64,000 nucleotides of DNA from Paenibacillus sacheonensis (GTDB taxonomy: Bacteria; Bacillota; Bacilli; Paenibacillales; Paenibacillaceae). Within the stretch, counting starts at the first letter, position 1. Every line of letters begins with the position of its first letter. This document shows, piece after piece, positions 7,285 to 18,661 of the stretch. The stretch covers positions 62,001 through 126,000 of the forward strand of contig NZ_JAAAMU010000016.1 in NCBI RefSeq assembly GCF_009909195.1. The letters run 5' to 3'. The notes under the pieces were generated by a model that saw nothing but the letters and a program-made list of their open reading frames with translations, searched no databases and was not told where the DNA came from. Position numbers and translations under genes: made by a program.

Positions 7285-8437
7285 CGAAAGCGTCATTCGG
7301 GAAGGTGTAAAACGAACCATCAACCGGGCTTTTCCCGACTATATCATTCATCTGGCCGGCTCTGCGGAAGAGGCGGTCGGTATCATAGACGCGCAGCCCG
7401 TCGATATCGTGCTGACGGATATTTTAATGCCCGGCATCAACGGACTGGAATTCATGAAGATGTCGCGGCGTAAATATCCGCATGTGAAATGGGTCGTGAT
7501 CTCGGCGCATTCCGAGTTCTCGTATGCCCAGGAGGCGGTGCGGCTCGGCGCGCGCGACTATCTCTTGAAGCCGATCGGGAAGCAGCGGCTCGTCGAGCTG
7601 ATGGAGCAGCTTGCCGAGGAGACCAAGACGGAGACGGAGCTGTCTCGCGAGGGCGATCTCTTGAAGCGGAATCTGAAATATCTCCGCGAGGCGGTCTTCC
7701 AGCGGCTTGCTTCGGGGCTGGATATCGGGAATATCGATATTGCGCCCGTATTCGAGGCTTATCCGGAATTCCATCTCGTGATGACGCATATCGAAGAGGC
7801 CGTCAAATCGGTTCATCTCGAGCATTTCATCATCGAGAACGTCCTGTCGGAGCTGGTGGACCGGCATGGCGAGGGGTTCGTCGTCAATTTCGACCGGCAG
7901 AGCCTGCTGGCCATCGTCCATTTCAAGGACGCGGCCGAGGAAGAGGCGATGCTGGCGGAGCTGCGGACGCATCTCGGCCATTATTTGAAGCTGCCGTTCC
8001 GGATCTCGCACTCCGGCAACATAACGGACGTTCACGACATTGCCTCGGAAGTGAAGCGGCTCCGCCAGGCCTCCTCCGTTCCCGGCTTGGAGCGCGGCGA
8101 AGGCAGCGATCGCGCGATCGAGGTCGCCCTGCAGTATTTGAAGGCGCATTACAACGAGGAGCTGTCGCTGGAGAAGGTGGCGTCCGTCGTGTTTCTCAAT
8201 CCCATCTACTTCAGCCAGCTGTTCAAGCAGAAGACGGGGCAGGGGTACAAGGACTACGTCATCAGCCTGCGCATCGAGCAGGCGAAGGAGCTGCTGCGGC
8301 AGCACGGCCTGAAGCTTGCGGATATCGCGGAGCGGATCGGCTACGGCGACGTGCGCCACTTCACGCAGGTGTTCCGCAAGAAGACGAATGTGACGCCTAC
8401 GGAGTATCGTCAGATGATCTTCGCGGAGCGGGGGTAA
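7256..8437 (+). CDS. AraC-type response regulator, YesN family
   Basis: Transcription factor of 393 residues: receiver domain at 1-120 with acidic pocket Asp9/Asp10, phosphoacceptor Asp55 (VLTDILMP) and Lys in DYLLKPI; a variable linker domain; two AraC helix-turn-helix motifs in the last 100 residues (EKVASVVFLNPIYFSQLFKQ and ADIAERIGYGDVRHFTQVF). I accept the TTG start at 7256 because AAGGAGG lies 8 nt upstream. It overlaps the kinase gene by 29 bp, showing translational coupling. Expected to activate the importer genes upstream in response to kinase signalling. Confidence 0.93.
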   Translation: MAVNILIADDESVIREGVKRTINRAFPDYIIHLAGSAEEAVGIIDAQPVDIVLTDILMPGINGLEFMKMSRRKYPHVKWVVISAHSEFSYAQEAVRLGARDYLLKPIGKQRLVELMEQLAEETKTETELSREGDLLKRNLKYLREAVFQRLASGLDIGNIDIAPVFEAYPEFHLVMTHIEEAVKSVHLEHFIIENVLSELVDRHGEGFVVNFDRQSLLAIVHFKDAAEEEAMLAELRTHLGHYLKLPFRISHSGNITDVHDIASEVKRLRQASSVPGLERGEGSDRAIEVALQYLKAHYNEELSLEKVASVVFLNPIYFSQLFKQKTGQGYKDYVISLRIEQAKELLRQHGLKLADIAERIGYGDVRHFTQVFRKKTNVTPTEYRQMIFAERG

Positions 8438-8463: not shown

Positions 8464-8590
8464 CTTTTCACTTCAACCTTTCAACCTGCAAACCTTTAAA
8501 GCTTAAACTTGCAAACCTTTAAACCTACAAACCTTTAAACCTACAAACCTTTAAAGCTTCAAGCTCTTAAACCTTCAAATCTTCAGGCTC
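8464..8590. repeat. AT-rich low-complexity direct repeats
   Basis: Imperfect short direct repeats of about 16 bp built on AAACCTTTAAACCTAC, at least four copies in a row, followed by a CCCCCTT-GCCT-AAGGGGG hairpin (about 8621-8638). There is no coding signal. It borders the 191-bp array. Confidence 0.75.
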
Positions 8591-8639
8591 ATGTCAAGGG
8601 CGTTTCACAACCCCCTAAATCCCCCTTGCCTAAGGGGGA

Positions 8640-9572
8640 CCCCAGGGACGCCGTCCCTGGACCCGGATGTGGCGCGCCTGCAGCGGGGCCGTCTTCGAAC
8701 ATTCGTTTGAGGAGGGCTCGTTTTCGTCTGCCTGGGCAGACACACTTTACGTGCGGCGTGCTTTCTTTACTTGGTGCCTGATGTTGGTAGGTCGCGCACG
8801 TGCCGTGCGCGACCTACCCCTTGCCTGAGACCCCAGGGACTCCGTCCCTGGACCCGGGTTTGGCGCGCCTGCAGCGGGGCTGTCTTCGAACTTGCGTTTG
8901 AGGAGGGCTCGTTTTCGTTTGCTTGGGCAGACACACTTTACGTTTGGCTTGCTTCCTCTACTTGGTGCCTGATGTTGGTAGGTCTCGCACGTGCCGTGCG
9001 CGACCTACCCCTTGCCTGAGACCCCAGGGACTCCGTCCCTGGACCCGGGATGTGGCGTGCCTGCAGCGGGGCCTCTTCGAACTTGCGTTTGAGGAGGGCT
9101 CGTTTTCGTCTGCTTGGGCAGACACACTTTACGTTTGGCTTGCTTCCTCTACTTGGTGCCTGATGTGGTAGGTCGCGCACGTGCCGTGCGCGACCTACCC
9201 CTTGCCTAAGACCCCAGAGACTCCGTCCCTGACCCGGGTTTGGCGCGCCTGCTGCGGGGGCCGTCTTCGAACTTGCGTTTGAGGAGGGCTCGTTTTCGTC
9301 TGCTTGGGCAGACACACTTTACGTTTGGCTTGCTTCCTCTACTTGGTGCCTGATGTTGGTAGGTCGCGCACGTGCCGTGCGGGACCTACCCCTTGCCTAA
9401 GACCCCAGGGACTCCGTCCCTGGACCCGGGTTTGGCGTGCCTGCAGCGGGGCCTCTTCGAACTTGCGTTTGAGGAGGGCTCGTTTTCGTCTGCTTGGGCA
9501 GACACACTTTACGTTTGGCTTGCTTCCTCTACTTGGTGCCTGATGTTGGTAGGTCGCGCACGTGCCGTGCGC
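8640..9572. repeat. Five tandem copies of a 190-191-bp intergenic repeat
   Basis: Units begin with CCCCAGGGA at 8640, 8831, 9022, 9212 and 9403, a constant period of 190-191 bp, with only scattered substitutions between copies. Each unit holds three inverted repeats: CCAGGGAC-TCC-GTCCCTGG, GTCTGC-TTGG-GCAGAC, and AGGTCGCGCAC-GTGCC-GTGCGCGACCT. The last copy breaks off inside its final palindrome at about 9572. Open frames across the array exist in several registers on both strands, lack ribosome sites and merely repeat the unit, so I do not call genes. Confidence 0.93.
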
Positions 9573-9628
9573 TGCTTCCTGTGAATCAAAGTACGCCTGG
9601 TTTAGGTCTTCTTTTGTACCAACTAGGA

Positions 9629-9683
9629 TTGACACCGAGGAAATTATTGACTATCATCGTATTTGTTTGATAATGATTATCAA
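9629..9683 (+). promoter_or_regulatory. Promoter with Fur box upstream of siderophore-binding protein gene
   Basis: A promoter TTGACA (9629-9634) with 17-bp spacer and TATCAT (9652-9657) is followed by TTGATAATGATTATCAA (9667-9683), a perfect 7-1-7-type Fur box placed at the likely transcription start. A second hexamer pair, TTGACT (9647) and GATAAT (9669), overlaps. Fur with Fe(II) would repress the gene, matching its product. Confidence 0.88.
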
Positions 9684-9788: not shown

Positions 9789-10808
9789 ATGAGAAAGAAA
9801 TTTATAAGTAGTGCGCTCATTCTTGTATTTACGCTGATTGTGAGTGCGTGCGGCAGCAATTCTAATGAGTCCGATGCCAACCCGAGCGCTAGCGCGAACG
9901 CTGCTGCCGACTCGAACGCCGGCACCGCTAATGAAGCCGGCACTGAAATGAACTCCGAATCCAATACCGAGGCCGGCACCAACCCCGGCGATTCTTCCGG
10001 CACTATTACGTATCAGTCGGAGAACGGTCCTGTCGTAGTACCGGCCAACCCGCAGCGCGTAGTCGCGCTTGCCGGATTTTCCGGACACTTACATACGCTG
10101 GGCATTCCGATCGTGGCGGTGGATGAGTGGTCCAAACAGAATCCGAACTTCGCCGTTTATTTGGGCGATACGCCGGAAGTGAACGATGAGGATCTGGAGA
10201 AGATCATCGAGCTGAAGCCGGATCTCATTATCGCCGCTGGCGACGTGAAGAATGATGACAAGTTGAAACAGATCGCGCCGACGATCACCTACACCTACGG
10301 GAAAGTCGCTTACCTGGATCAATTCCTGGAAATCGGCAAGCTGGTGAACAAGGAAGCGGAGGCGCAAGCATGGATTGACGATTTCAAGAAGCGCGCCCAA
10401 GCGGCCGGAGAGAAGATCCGGACCAAGATCGGCGCGGACGCAACCGTGACGGTCATGGAGAGCTACGAGAAGCAGTTGTATGTTTATGGCGATCATTACA
10501 CGCGGGGCACGGAAATTTTGTATCAAGAGATGAAGCTGAATATGCCCGATAAAGTCAAACAGCAAGCGCAAAAGGAAGGCTACTATGCGCTGTCGACCGA
10601 ATTGCTGCCGCAGTATGCAGGCGATTATATCGTCTTCAGTAAAGATCTCGCGCAAGACAACTCCTTCCAAGAAACGACGATGTACAAAAATTTGACGGCC
10701 GTGAAGAACAAGCATGTATTCGAGGTGGATACGAACCGTGCGTACTTCGATGATCCGGTCACGTTGGATTACCTGCTTGATTTCATCGTGAAGAGCTTCT
10801 TGGGTTAA
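9789..10808 (+). CDS. Iron-siderophore ABC transporter substrate-binding lipoprotein
   Basis: Receptor for ferric siderophore uptake, lipid-anchored outside the membrane. The signal peptide ends in LIVSAC with Cys21; a long Asn/Ala/Glu/Gly-rich linker (about 22-72) follows, then a Peripla_BP_2 (FhuD/BtuF-like) fold with PQRVVALAG at its start and LEKIIELKPDLIIAAG, typical of the family. The 339-residue length fits. An AGGGGGAG site precedes the ATG. No permease or ATPase gene lies beside it, so it is an orphan receptor that must use permeases encoded elsewhere. Fur control is indicated by the box upstream. The siderophore type is not predictable; the hydroxamate-binding FhuD/YxeB branch is the closest in feel. 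Confidence 0.93.
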   Translation: MRKKFISSALILVFTLIVSACGSNSNESDANPSASANAAADSNAGTANEAGTEMNSESNTEAGTNPGDSSGTITYQSENGPVVVPANPQRVVALAGFSGHLHTLGIPIVAVDEWSKQNPNFAVYLGDTPEVNDEDLEKIIELKPDLIIAAGDVKNDDKLKQIAPTITYTYGKVAYLDQFLEIGKLVNKEAEAQAWIDDFKKRAQAAGEKIRTKIGADATVTVMESYEKQLYVYGDHYTRGTEILYQEMKLNMPDKVKQQAQKEGYYALSTELLPQYAGDYIVFSKDLAQDNSFQETTMYKNLTAVKNKHVFEVDTNRAYFDDPVTLDYLLDFIVKSFLG

Positions 10809-15830: not shown

Positions 15831-15859
15831 TTTACAAAAAGCGGTGGCAGGCGTAACAT
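15831..15859 (+). promoter_or_regulatory. Candidate promoter of the c-di-AMP riboswitch transcript
   Basis: TTTACA (15831-15836), 17-bp spacer, TAACAT (15854-15859). The predicted start near 15866 is just upstream of the conserved riboswitch core, the right distance for a short leader. Confidence 0.5.
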
Positions 15860-15887
15860 ACGATTCGTGCTAAAACAAACCATGTGA

Positions 15888-16095
15888 CATCTACGCTGAA
15901 TTTCCGAAGTAGGAAAACGGGGGAACCAATGACAGCTCGAGCATGCGAAGCCTTGCTTCGCCGCTTGCCGTCTGGGGTGAATCCCGAGCAAGGCCGCTGC
16001 GGCAGCCGTGCTCGGGTAGGGCAGCTCTTAGGGCCCGAATCCGACAGCTAACCTCGTAAGCGACCTGAGAGAGGCGACGAATATGCGTGCGACAG
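15888..16095 (+). ncRNA. Cyclic di-AMP riboswitch (ydaO/yuaA class)
   Basis: All the invariant blocks of the ydaO-yuaA class are present in order: GCTGAAT, GGGGGAACC (about 15919-15927), GGGGTGAATCC (about 15973), and CGAATCCGACAGCTAACC with CTCGTAAGCG (about 16037-16064), closed by complementary ACGC/GCGT ends. A species-specific GC-rich hairpin is inserted between blocks. This class binds two c-di-AMP molecules and usually switches genes off when the nucleotide is high; its usual targets are potassium uptake and wall-remodelling genes. It lies upstream of the double-KdpD sensor gene on the same strand. Confidence 0.95.
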
Positions 16096-16116
16096 GACAC
16101 TTCATTATAAGATGTG

Positions 16117-16177
16117 CCAGGAAGCCGCGAGAGGCGTTCCTCTGAACAGAGGCCGTTTTTCGTTGGCTTCTTTTTTG
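16117..16177 (+). terminator. Riboswitch expression platform: terminator stem
   Basis: GAAGCC (16121-16126) pairs with GGCTTC (16165-16170) followed by six T residues; an inner CCTCTG-AAC-AGAGG hairpin precedes a GTTTTT run. Placed between the riboswitch core and the coding start, it fits transcription termination upon c-di-AMP binding. Confidence 0.75.
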
Positions 16178-16256
16178 ATGCTCGTATTCATCCGGGGCAT
16201 AAGTTTCGGGAAAACATGTAAATTTATAGGTATAGGCAGGAAAGGGGCTTGTTGTT

Positions 16257-18593
16257 ATGGCCGGCTACCGGCGTAAAACTCCGGAAGAGTTGCTGTTATC
16301 CATTTCTAAAATCCACCGCGGACGTCTCAAGATCTATATCGGCGCCGTCAGCGGTTCCGGGAAAACGTATCATATGCTGCGCGAGGGCCAAGCGCTCAAG
16401 CAGCAGGGGATCGAGGTGGTCGTATGCGCGGTTTCGACGATGCGCCGCCCGGAAACCGTCGAGCAGCTTGCGGATCTTGAACGTATTCCGAGCATCCATT
16501 GGATGAAGGGCGACGTGGAGAAGAAGGATTTGAATTTGGATGCGATCGTGGCGCGCAATCCGGAAGTGCTGCTGGTCGATTCGCTGGCGCATGAGAACAG
16601 GCCGGATGCGAAGTTTCCGACGCGGCGCGAAGATATCCGTTATTTGCTCAGCCTCGGCATCAGCGTCATCACGACGGTTAACGTTTACGAGCTGGAAGGC
16701 GTGACGGAGCAGGCTCAGAAGCTGACCGGCATTGCGCCGGAATGCACCGTATCCGCCGATCTGCTGGAGCTGGCGGACGAGGTGCGGCTGATCGACGCGT
16801 CGCCGGAGACCATTCTCAGCAGGCTAAGCGAAGGCCGGCTGAACAACGTCAAGGATCCGGAGCTGTTGAAACGCGGCAACGTCGGTAAGCTGCGCGAGCT
16901 GGCCCTTCGCCTGGTTGCGGAAGGCGTGAACGAGACGCTGGAGAAATACCGCGAGGAACAAGGGTTCATCGGACCCTCCGGCGTCTCCGAGCGTATCCTG
17001 GTCGCCGCGCAGTATCACATCAACGGTTCCATCTATATTCGGCGCGGGCAGCAGATCGCGAAGCGCCTCGGAGGCGACCTGCAGGTCGTCGTCTTCAACG
17101 ATACGAGCCAGGAGCAGACCAAGGAGCGCGAGGCGTTCAAGAAATCGATCCTGAAGCTGGTCGAGAAGGTAGGGGCCGGCTTCCGCGAGATTGCCGTCTC
17201 TGGCCGCAAGCAGGTACCGCGCGCGATGATTCGTTATGCGATGCTGATTAATGCGACGCGCATCGTCATGGGCCATTCCAAGCAGACCCGTTCGGAAGAG
17301 CTGCGCCACGGCTCCATCGCCCACAGCCTGCTGAAGCAGACGCGCAATATCGACGTGTTCTTCATGGCCGACCGCGCGGAGCATGAGGGCGAGCGGGTGC
17401 TGCCGACGAAGCGCCACGTGCAGAAGCCGCCGTCCGAGCCGTACCGCCGCCTGAGCGAGCAGGAGGTCGAGAAGAAGATCGAGCGCATCCGGCGGGGCAC
17501 GTTCAAGGTATACGTCGGGGCAGCGCCCGGCGCCGGCAAGACGTATATGATGCTGCGCGAGGGCAATGATTTGCTCCGCAAGGACATCGATGTCGTCATC
17601 GGCTATGTCGATGCGCACGGAAGACCCGATACGGAAGCCCAAATCGGCCGCTTGACGTCCGTTCCCCGCATGACGATCGGGGAGAACGGCGCCGAGGAAA
17701 TGGACGTCGCGGCGATCATCGCGCGCAATCCGGAGGTCGCGCTGATCGACGAGCTGGCGCATGCCAACGTGCCGGGCAGCCGCAACAAGCACCGCTACGA
17801 AGATATCCGCGAGCTGCTGGACGCGGGCATCTCGGTCATCTCGACGATGAACGTCCAGCATTTGGAAAGCTTGAAGGACGCCGTGGAACAAATCACGGGA
17901 ACGACGATCACGGAGACCGTGCCGGATCAATTCCTTCGCCTCGCGGACGAGATGGAGCTGATCGACGTGGCGCCAAGCGCGCTGCAGGAGCGGGTGCGGG
18001 ACGGTCAGATTTGCAGGGCCGAGGATGTGGAAGGCGAGCTTGCCGGCATCTTCAAGACCGGCAACCTGATCGCGCTGCGCGAGCTGGCGCTTCGGGAAAT
18101 CGCCGACGACGTGGATGAACGCCTGGAGTCGTGGGAGCGCAACGGCTCGCTGCGCGGACCTTGGAGACGCCACGAGTCGATCTTCGTCGGCGTCACGACG
18201 AGCAAGAACGCGGAGCGGCTTATCCGCCGCGGTTTCCGTATCGCGTACCGTCTGAAAGCAGACTGGCATGTGCATTACGTGCGTCCCGAAGGGGAGCGTT
18301 CGGCTGCCTGCGATCAGCGGATCGAGGAGATCAAGGCGCTGGTCGCCCGGCTTGGCGGCACGTTCGAGGCCGAGAGCGGCGTGGCGGCGAATCGGATTCC
18401 GGATGCGCTACTGGCGAAGGCGAACGAGCTGAAGAGCACGCAGATGATTCTGGGGCAGTCGGGTCGCGGCTTCTGGAGCCGGCTGAAGCAGAAACCGGTC
18501 ATCGATACGGTCTTGCGGGAAGGCCGGCATATGGATGTCCTGGTCGTGGCGGACTTTAATCCGAACATGGCCCTTGGGGAAGAGGAAGAATAG
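16257..18593 (+). CDS. Double KdpD sensor protein (KdpD-N/USP duplicated, no kinase)
   Basis: A 778-residue soluble protein composed of two copies of the KdpD cytoplasmic sensor unit. Copy 1: KdpD-N ATPase-like domain (about 20-230, Walker A GAVSGSGKT) plus universal-stress-protein (USP) domain (about 245-370). Copy 2: KdpD-N (about 415-620, Walker A GAAPGAGKT, Walker B-like ALIDELAHAN) plus USP domain (about 635-765). The transmembrane, GAF, DHp and HATPase parts of a full KdpD are absent, and no KdpE or KdpFABC gene is nearby. In copy 1 the Walker B-like segment reads LLVDSLAHEN, with Ser in place of Glu. The ATG follows AAAGGGG. The gene lies under a c-di-AMP riboswitch; the USP domain of S. 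aureus KdpD itself binds c-di-AMP. A role as potassium/c-di-AMP sensor or accessory to a separate kinase is inferred. Confidence 0.9.
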   Translation: MAGYRRKTPEELLLSISKIHRGRLKIYIGAVSGSGKTYHMLREGQALKQQGIEVVVCAVSTMRRPETVEQLADLERIPSIHWMKGDVEKKDLNLDAIVARNPEVLLVDSLAHENRPDAKFPTRREDIRYLLSLGISVITTVNVYELEGVTEQAQKLTGIAPECTVSADLLELADEVRLIDASPETILSRLSEGRLNNVKDPELLKRGNVGKLRELALRLVAEGVNETLEKYREEQGFIGPSGVSERILVAAQYHINGSIYIRRGQQIAKRLGGDLQVVVFNDTSQEQTKEREAFKKSILKLVEKVGAGFREIAVSGRKQVPRAMIRYAMLINATRIVMGHSKQTRSEELRHGSIAHSLLKQTRNIDVFFMADRAEHEGERVLPTKRHVQKPPSEPYRRLSEQEVEKKIERIRRGTFKVYVGAAPGAGKTYMMLREGNDLLRKDIDVVIGYVDAHGRPDTEAQIGRLTSVPRMTIGENGAEEMDVAAIIARNPEVALIDELAHANVPGSRNKHRYEDIRELLDAGISVISTMNVQHLESLKDAVEQITGTTITETVPDQFLRLADEMELIDVAPSALQERVRDGQICRAEDVEGELAGIFKTGNLIALRELALREIADDVDERLESWERNGSLRGPWRRHESIFVGVTTSKNAERLIRRGFRIAYRLKADWHVHYVRPEGERSAACDQRIEEIKALVARLGGTFEAESGVAANRIPDALLAKANELKSTQMILGQSGRGFWSRLKQKPVIDTVLREGRHMDVLVVADFNPNMALGEEEE

Positions 18594-18614: not shown

Positions 18615-18661
18615 ACATGTCCGGTTCAGCAGCGGCAACGCGTTGGACCGGGCTTTTTTTG
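18615..18661 (+). terminator. Terminator of the double-KdpD gene
   Basis: Stem CCGGTTCAGC / GCGTTGGACCGG (with G-T pairs) followed by GCTTTTTTT, preceded by a small GGACAT-AC-ATGTCC hairpin. Confidence 0.75.

Follow-up and report, generated by a model that had tools for sequence, protein, structure and literature searches.

A 64,000-nucleotide stretch of the Paenibacillus sacheonensis genome (contig NZ_JAAAMU010000016.1, positions 62,001 to 126,000; hereafter, the window) carries a riboswitch for cyclic di-adenosine monophosphate (c-di-AMP) directly in front of a doubled KdpD gene that is not linked to the pump genes of the Kdp K+ uptake system (the orphan; Table 1). Comparison with its kdp-linked paralogue indicates that constraint on the two kinase-like halves is reversed, the pseudokinase half being the more conserved in the orphan, a shift that points to a pseudokinase-type regulator. 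We tentatively propose, as a reading somewhat short of an even chance, that the orphan encodes a c-di-AMP-repressed, trans-acting and largely non-catalytic Kdp modulator derived from a riboswitch-kdp operon.

The aptamer matches RF00379 over its full length, far above the gathering score of 38 bits, and is the only gathering-level Rfam match in the whole 64-kb window. This confirms the initial annotation, made from the letters alone, which had placed a ydaO core, a terminator platform and the downstream gene contiguously on one strand (its start for the riboswitch, 15888, was off by 4 nt). The promoter-like site ahead of the aptamer was the only one found (0.3 expected from shuffles), and both of its hexamers are invariant across nine aligned orphan leaders. 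Between aptamer and gene lies an expression platform, an intrinsic terminator whose fold was matched by none of 200 shuffles (0/200 equally low). GGCTTCTTTTT and its hairpin are kept in 9/9 orphan leaders, with fold z values in the remaining eight of -1.1 to -3.6 (the weaker ones being L024, -1.1, and L019, -1.6). As a candidate antiterminator, the segment after the aptamer pairs with the 5' arm of the terminator in 9/9 leaders (-16.5 to -19.5 kcal/mol), but 21 to 202 of 500 shuffles did equally well and the candidate was rejected. The terminator-like hairpin 3' of the gene, which a short-loop terminator scan missed, suggests a monocistronic transcript, and the gene is probably transcribed alone.

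The position of the riboswitch is not a chance arrangement, because it recurs directly upstream of every one of the 13 orthologues found among 22 congeneric genomes (counts from these genomes are not phylogenetically independent, and eight of them are the orphan genomes of the locus search below). In every case the riboswitch lies 172-283 nt upstream of the orphan (86-109 bits), no orphan has kdpA within 8 kb upstream (0/13), and kdpA and a kdp-linked doubled KdpD are present elsewhere in all 13 genomes. kdpA with a linked doubled KdpD was found in 21/22 genomes, 13 of which have a riboswitch at most 1.7 kb before kdpA; the lone genome without kdpA (G027) yielded no doubled KdpD at E 1e-40. 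A histidine kinase stands beside the linked doubled KdpD in 15/22 genomes, i.e., in all 13 with an orphan and in two of the eight kdp genomes without one (Fisher p 0.0005, inflated by shared ancestry), and KdpE adjoins in 10/10 of the kdp-histidine kinase loci tested. The six kdp genomes without a histidine kinase all have a riboswitch before kdpA. Two genomes (G023 and G030) are exceptions, with the kinase present but neither an orphan nor a riboswitch before kdpA. A separate search for relatives returned 20 loci, 18 of them from Paenibacillaceae: eight orphans with a riboswitch directly upstream, nine kdp-linked copies whose loci have two same-strand riboswitches ahead of kdp and gave no match to a histidine kinase or KdpE, and one kdp-linked copy (L023) whose locus has kinase and KdpE and lacks a riboswitch.

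The 778-aa product contains two PF02702 (KdpD) stretches (483 bits against a cut-off of 26.1), and Pfam gives a single weak USP match (40 bits). Both USP folds are visible in the structure model, however, so that the modelled architecture is KdpD-USP-KdpD-USP; the two USP domains named in the initial annotation therefore stand, whereas the two KdpD domains had been overlooked. The remaining parts of a full KdpD histidine kinase (DUF4118/transmembrane, GAF, HisKA and HATPase) were not matched by Pfam anywhere in the protein (E 0.001). Relative to E. coli KdpD (from NC_000913.3), the first half, KdpD1, retains Walker A, the Walker B Asp and Arg190, but has Ser in place of the catalytic Walker B Glu, a residue reported to be required for phosphorylation by E. 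coli KdpD (PMC11018627; this and the other PMC sources are cited from partial text). The second half, KdpD2, retains the serine kinase residues Walker A GKT, D498-E499 and R579, the equivalent of Arg190. The adenine-binding Trp39 is absent: both halves of the window protein have Tyr there, a residue shared by every one of the 140 unique KdpD2s and by 2r8r, the P. syringae domain of known structure. Across the 140 unique doubled proteins, the Walker B Glu occurs in 3 KdpD1s and 138 KdpD2s; judged by sequence, one dead and one live kinase half is the rule of the doubled family. Among the 120 listed of 1585 matches, names are mostly Paenibacillus or Cohnella, and the doubled form was also seen in proteins labelled Heyndrickxia, Effusibacillus and Brevibacillus. 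A search of plasmids gave 440 records, each below 60% identity, and the 40 places listed, about 1.1-1.2 kb long, resembled single KdpD modules hit by both halves.

Both paralogues were compared in nine genomes (36 pairs each; pairwise values of nonsynonymous divergence, dN, are not independent). Mean dN in the orphans was 0.063 for KdpD1, 0.103 for USP1, 0.153 for KdpD2 and 0.184 for USP2, compared with 0.110, 0.176, 0.091 and 0.269, respectively, in the kdp-linked copies, and KdpD2 exceeded KdpD1 in 36/36 orphan pairs but only 6/36 linked pairs. Variable columns gave a similar picture: 57/215 in KdpD1 versus 92/214 in KdpD2 of the orphans (Fisher p 0.0004), 76/216 versus 60/215 in the linked copies (p 0.12), and a ratio of ratios between orphan and linked of 2.04 (95% interval 1.39-3.06). 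We further considered near-invariant columns, those conserved in at least 98% of 126 other doubled proteins (90 in KdpD2 and 44 in KdpD1). Each of 15 orphans has lost 9-15 of the 90 KdpD2 columns (15 in the window protein), compared with 0-1 in the nine linked copies and none in the linked doubled KdpD of the same genome, and the orphans have lost 0-1 of the 44 in KdpD1. Changes in the window KdpD2 include V426A in the P-loop, the ETHGR stretch and N540K; N540K is found in 15/15 orphans, R552 is replaced in 15/15, and the catalytic Glu499 is replaced in two (Asn in L015 and Asp in P0003). For each of the ten pairs tested, dN/dS lay well under 1 in all four domains. As constraint has moved off the kinase domain, a non-catalytic role is favoured. 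The shared changes at near-invariant columns could alternatively mean that KdpD2 changed substrate and became a riboswitch-controlled serine kinase acting on a protein other than KdpB, for which the retained GK(T/S), Walker B Asp and Arg, together with low dN/dS, can be cited. We consider this quite improbable, given that the catalytic Glu is gone in 2/15 orphans, that the strongest constraint is on KdpD1 rather than KdpD2, that there is no candidate substrate, and that each of the 13 orphan genomes has kdpA.

In a tree of 56 proteins, the orphans formed a single clade (100/100) next to P0017 and the Cohnella-type copies, and the linked copies of the orphan genomes (of the type with a kdp histidine kinase) fell in a separate group (93/95). 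Among the copies neighbouring the orphan clade, gene context was checked in two cases, L020 (Cohnella) and G035 (probably the genome of P0017); in both, kdpA follows two riboswitches and is itself followed by the doubled KdpD. Because the orphan clade lies beside copies in riboswitch-kdp operons, we infer descent from such an operon; the orphan would be its remnant, in genomes with a second kdp operon of the KdpD/KdpE type. This likely origin, with the relaxation of KdpD2, could also suit a functionless relic of a lost operon. Such a relic is very improbable, as the frames are open, the riboswitch scores 86-109 bits in 13/13 genomes, the leader is conserved in the nine aligned, dN/dS is well below 1 throughout the four domains, and KdpD1 is more conserved than in the linked paralogue.

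The initial annotation had also stated that no Kdp pump, KdpE or kinase domain is nearby. This is correct insofar as no pump gene is close; pump, histidine kinase and KdpE are nonetheless encoded on another contig. In the assembly searched (7.44 Mb in 46 contigs, with the window on contig C8), the sole KdpA lies on contig C11, in a cluster of kdpA, kdpB, a 188-aa open reading frame (ORF) at the place of kdpC, a second doubled KdpD, a DUF4118/GAF/HisKA/HATPase kinase and a KdpE-like regulator. The doubled KdpD of this cluster (L009:9599-11971) shares 61% identity and the same architecture with the window protein. A search for RF00379, even in degenerate form, gave no match at E 1 within 2.4 kb before this kdpA; with no kdpA on C8 and no riboswitch within that distance of the only kdpA, the genome does not appear to have a riboswitch-controlled kdp operon. 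Four RF00379 matches are present in the assembly, the other three preceding a G5/3D-domain protein, an NlpC/P60 protein and a LysM-3D protein, and the window gene is the sole K+-related target among them.

The genome's KdpB has the same ESAITGESAPVI stretch as that of E. coli, including the target serine, and this sharing is also consistent with the orphan being a second, unlinked KdpB serine kinase. It would be made together with the pump at low c-di-AMP, would phosphorylate the TGES serine when K+ returns and would shut the pump, with KdpD1 as an allosteric partner. The Walker A, Asp-Glu and Arg190 equivalent of KdpD2 agree with such a kinase, as does the activity reported for E. coli and Deinococcus geothermalis KdpD (PMC11018627). 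An inhibitor kinase made solely at low c-di-AMP is conceivable because the ancestral gene, in a presumed order of riboswitches, kdpFABC and doubled KdpD, would have been made with the pump. We nonetheless regard it as rather unlikely: the window KdpD2 has changed at 15 of 90 near-invariant residues (9-15 per orphan, 0-1 in linked copies), two of 15 orphans lack the catalytic Glu, constraint has shifted to the pseudokinase half, and a linked doubled KdpD is already present in every genome with an orphan.

In the non-catalytic modulator that we prefer, high c-di-AMP (and K+) would cause the riboswitch to end transcription early, and the gene would be made at low c-di-AMP. This OFF direction is suggested by the terminator and by family precedent, since the kdp riboswitch of B. 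thuringiensis terminates transcription upon ligand binding (PMC6488665); by analogy, the orphan would be made at low c-di-AMP. Its product would be a probably soluble, doubled KdpD input module. It would descend from the sensor of an operon with a riboswitch before kdpFABC, now without adjacent pump genes, and would act in trans on the Kdp components encoded elsewhere (kdpABC, doubled KdpD, histidine kinase and KdpE). The main action would be non-catalytic, with the conserved pseudokinase/USP half binding a Kdp partner and favouring K+ uptake at low c-di-AMP. Like the isolated N-terminal part of E. coli KdpD, it could stabilise phosphorylated KdpE (KdpE~P) on DNA; alternatively, it could compete for KdpB with the serine kinase encoded at kdp. 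Synthesis at low c-di-AMP, the predicted sign of the switch, favours such a pro-uptake role. In E. coli, KdpD/1-395 alone led to constitutive kdpFABC expression, and a free KdpD-USP piece can raise kdp expression via KdpE~P (PMC2714519, citing Heermann 2003). Overexpression of truncated KdpD in a c-di-AMP-rich B. anthracis strain gave more kdpABC transcripts (PMC11302148). More specifically, though with greater reserve, the orphan may be a dedicated pseudokinase regulator, its dead first half the most selected, that shields or promotes Kdp in trans at low c-di-AMP and so re-attaches c-di-AMP control to a pump that has moved to KdpD/KdpE. The riboswitch, architecture, linkage, clade, residue changes and selection shift are read from sequence; we infer the OFF direction, the action on Kdp, its sign and the partner.

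Several points weigh against this proposal. Action of the orphan on Kdp is argued from protein family, co-occurrence and ancestry. Deletion of truncated kdpD in B. anthracis was also reported to promote kdpB/C (PMC11302148), and deletion in B. thuringiensis, where there is no KdpE, reportedly left kdp transcripts unchanged (PMC6488665). The window KdpD2 retains Walker A, D498, E499 and R579, and its dN/dS is low (0.055/0.63 versus L021), so that by sequence this half appears changed rather than abandoned, and simple decay does not describe it. For the closest pair, G000/G008, KdpD2 rates are nearly the same in orphan and linked copies (0.055 versus 0.052), and the contrast there comes from KdpD1. 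Antiterminator pairing in the nine leaders is no better than chance when set against shuffles.

It had further been suggested that c-di-AMP acts twice, repressing the gene via the riboswitch and binding the USP domains to switch the protein. The riboswitch is real, but the protein arm, while possible, is unsupported. The signature of c-di-AMP-binding KdpD USPs is (A/G/C)XSXSX2N with Y/F271 (S. aureus positions 242, 244, 246, 249 and 271), at which USP2 of the window has G, T, S, A and Y (3/5, with Thr for Ser244) and USP1 has A, Q, H, G and V (1/5). Neither domain thus belongs to the c-di-AMP-binding KdpD USP subfamily by this signature, and none of the 140 unique doubled proteins (0/140) has all five residues. 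The 149 aligned USP2s all have Ala or Ser in place of Asn249, which the S. aureus domain needs for c-di-AMP (PMC8214093), and Ser244 is Gln in 148/149 USP1s. For a M. tuberculosis USP with a 1/5 signature, the affinity for c-di-AMP was about 0.7% of that of the S. aureus domain (PMC8214093). In favour of a double action, the fold is of the KdpD USP type, with 7ji4 (the S. aureus KdpD USP with c-di-AMP; PMC8214093) ranking first among USP matches, for USP1 in the structure comparison and for USP2 in the profile search, and the truncated KdpD of B. anthracis, from an operon with a riboswitch, binds c-di-AMP (PMC11302148). A profile of 65 sequences aligned USP2 without gaps through the binding motif of 7ji4, and its best USP match for USP1 was 1mjh (E 0.0068); as lone queries against the PDB, neither USP1 nor USP2 recovered a KdpD USP, which solely the profile did, for USP2. 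With the S. aureus signature incomplete, binding is not predicted, although weak binding by USP2 is possible, and we consider a double action unlikely. At aa 252-257 of USP1, the window protein and its relatives have a QYHxNG-like motif in place of the SxS of c-di-AMP-binding USPs; USP1 may have a different ligand or contact.

The riboswitch class and the protein family are known, but the arrangement was not found described in the literature searched: neither a doubled KdpD nor a riboswitch before an unlinked kdpD was found among the titles and abstracts listed (subscription papers and supplements lay outside the search), and a word search for six such terms in PMC11018627 found none. The ydaO riboswitch-kdpFABC-truncated kdpD operon of B. 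thuringiensis and B. anthracis is similar in its c-di-AMP riboswitch, its KdpD without the histidine kinase half and its K+ context (PMC6488665, PMC11302148). There, however, the riboswitch precedes kdpFABC, with kdpD afterwards (365 aa in B. thuringiensis) and no KdpE, whereas the window riboswitch drives just an unlinked doubled KdpD and kdp has its own kinase and KdpE. The short KdpD/Usp serine kinase of D. geothermalis likewise lacks histidine kinase domains, but is a single module stimulated by c-di-AMP in vitro (PMC11018627); the window protein is doubled, unlinked to the pump, predicted from its sequence to have a dead first kinase, and incomplete in the c-di-AMP signature. E. coli KdpD/1-395 (PMC2714519) is also a KdpD-USP piece without the histidine kinase that acts on kdp expression, although it is an artificial construct with a single module. 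Unlike the window gene, the linked paralogue sits in a kdpABC-doubled KdpD-histidine kinase-KdpE cluster without a riboswitch. If our proposal is true, it would show how K+ uptake can remain under a second messenger once the pump operon has come under a different regulator, the riboswitch being retained on a stand-alone sensor module. The two genes form a natural paralogue pair in one genome: the kinase domain is conserved in the kdp-linked copy, the pseudokinase half in the orphan. With this pair, the unsettled roles of short KdpD proteins become open to direct tests.

Table 1. Features of the orphan locus, in window coordinates
Feature	Coordinates	Strand	Details
Promoter-like site TTTACA-17-TAACAT	15831-15859	+	Consensus scan, 9/12 positions match
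c-di-AMP (ydaO/yuaA) riboswitch aptamer	15884-16078	+	RF00379, 91.8 bits, E = 3e-20, model 1-134 complete
Intrinsic terminator of leader, long hairpin then T-run	16119-16176	+	112-nt fold -43.2 kcal/mol, z -4.0
Orphan doubled KdpD-USP-KdpD-USP gene (modelled architecture)	16257-18593	+	778 aa; same strand as riboswitch
KdpD1, pseudokinase-like	16314-16961	+	aa 20-235; Walker A GAVSGSGKT kept, Walker B Asp-Ser for Asp-Glu
USP1	16986-17372	+	aa 244-372; c-di-AMP signature 1/5; QYHxNG-like motif
KdpD2	17490-18134	+	aa 412-626; Walker A, Asp498-Glu499 and Arg579 kept; 15/90 near-invariant columns changed
USP2	18174-18554	+	aa 640-766; c-di-AMP signature 3/5 (G, T for S, S, A for N, Y)
Terminator-like hairpin with T-run 3' of gene	18619-18661	+	Fold z -4.0

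Other kdp loci showed further variation. Two same-strand c-di-AMP riboswitches precede kdpFABC in all nine such loci (L020, L022, L025-L030 and L032), and in L020 and L022 the opposite strand carries one more. Genomes of this genus can contain both the riboswitch and a kdp operon with histidine kinase, and in 7/15 (G020, G022, G024, G025, G032, G033 and G036) the two coincide at one kdp operon, with the riboswitch 0.9-1.7 kb before kdpA (41-96 bits) and the histidine kinase after the doubled KdpD; KdpE was checked in five of these seven. Riboswitch and histidine kinase control of kdp have been reported as mutually exclusive (PMC6488665), and these operons bear on that report, riboswitch control of kdp being putative at such distances. 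An ORF of ~140 aa with no Pfam match lies between riboswitch and kdpA at L053:4057-4476, L058:4243-4695 and L060:11413-11838 (minus strand), and the kdpA of one orphan-bearing relative (G019:C1:1777921-1779562) reads as two adjoining pieces in different frames. Elsewhere in the window, five tandem units of ~190 nt with a GC-rich hairpin core (8638-9642) are preceded by 8-nt AT-rich repeats (8467-8586) and flanked by an ORF ending at 8437/8457 and another starting at 9789.

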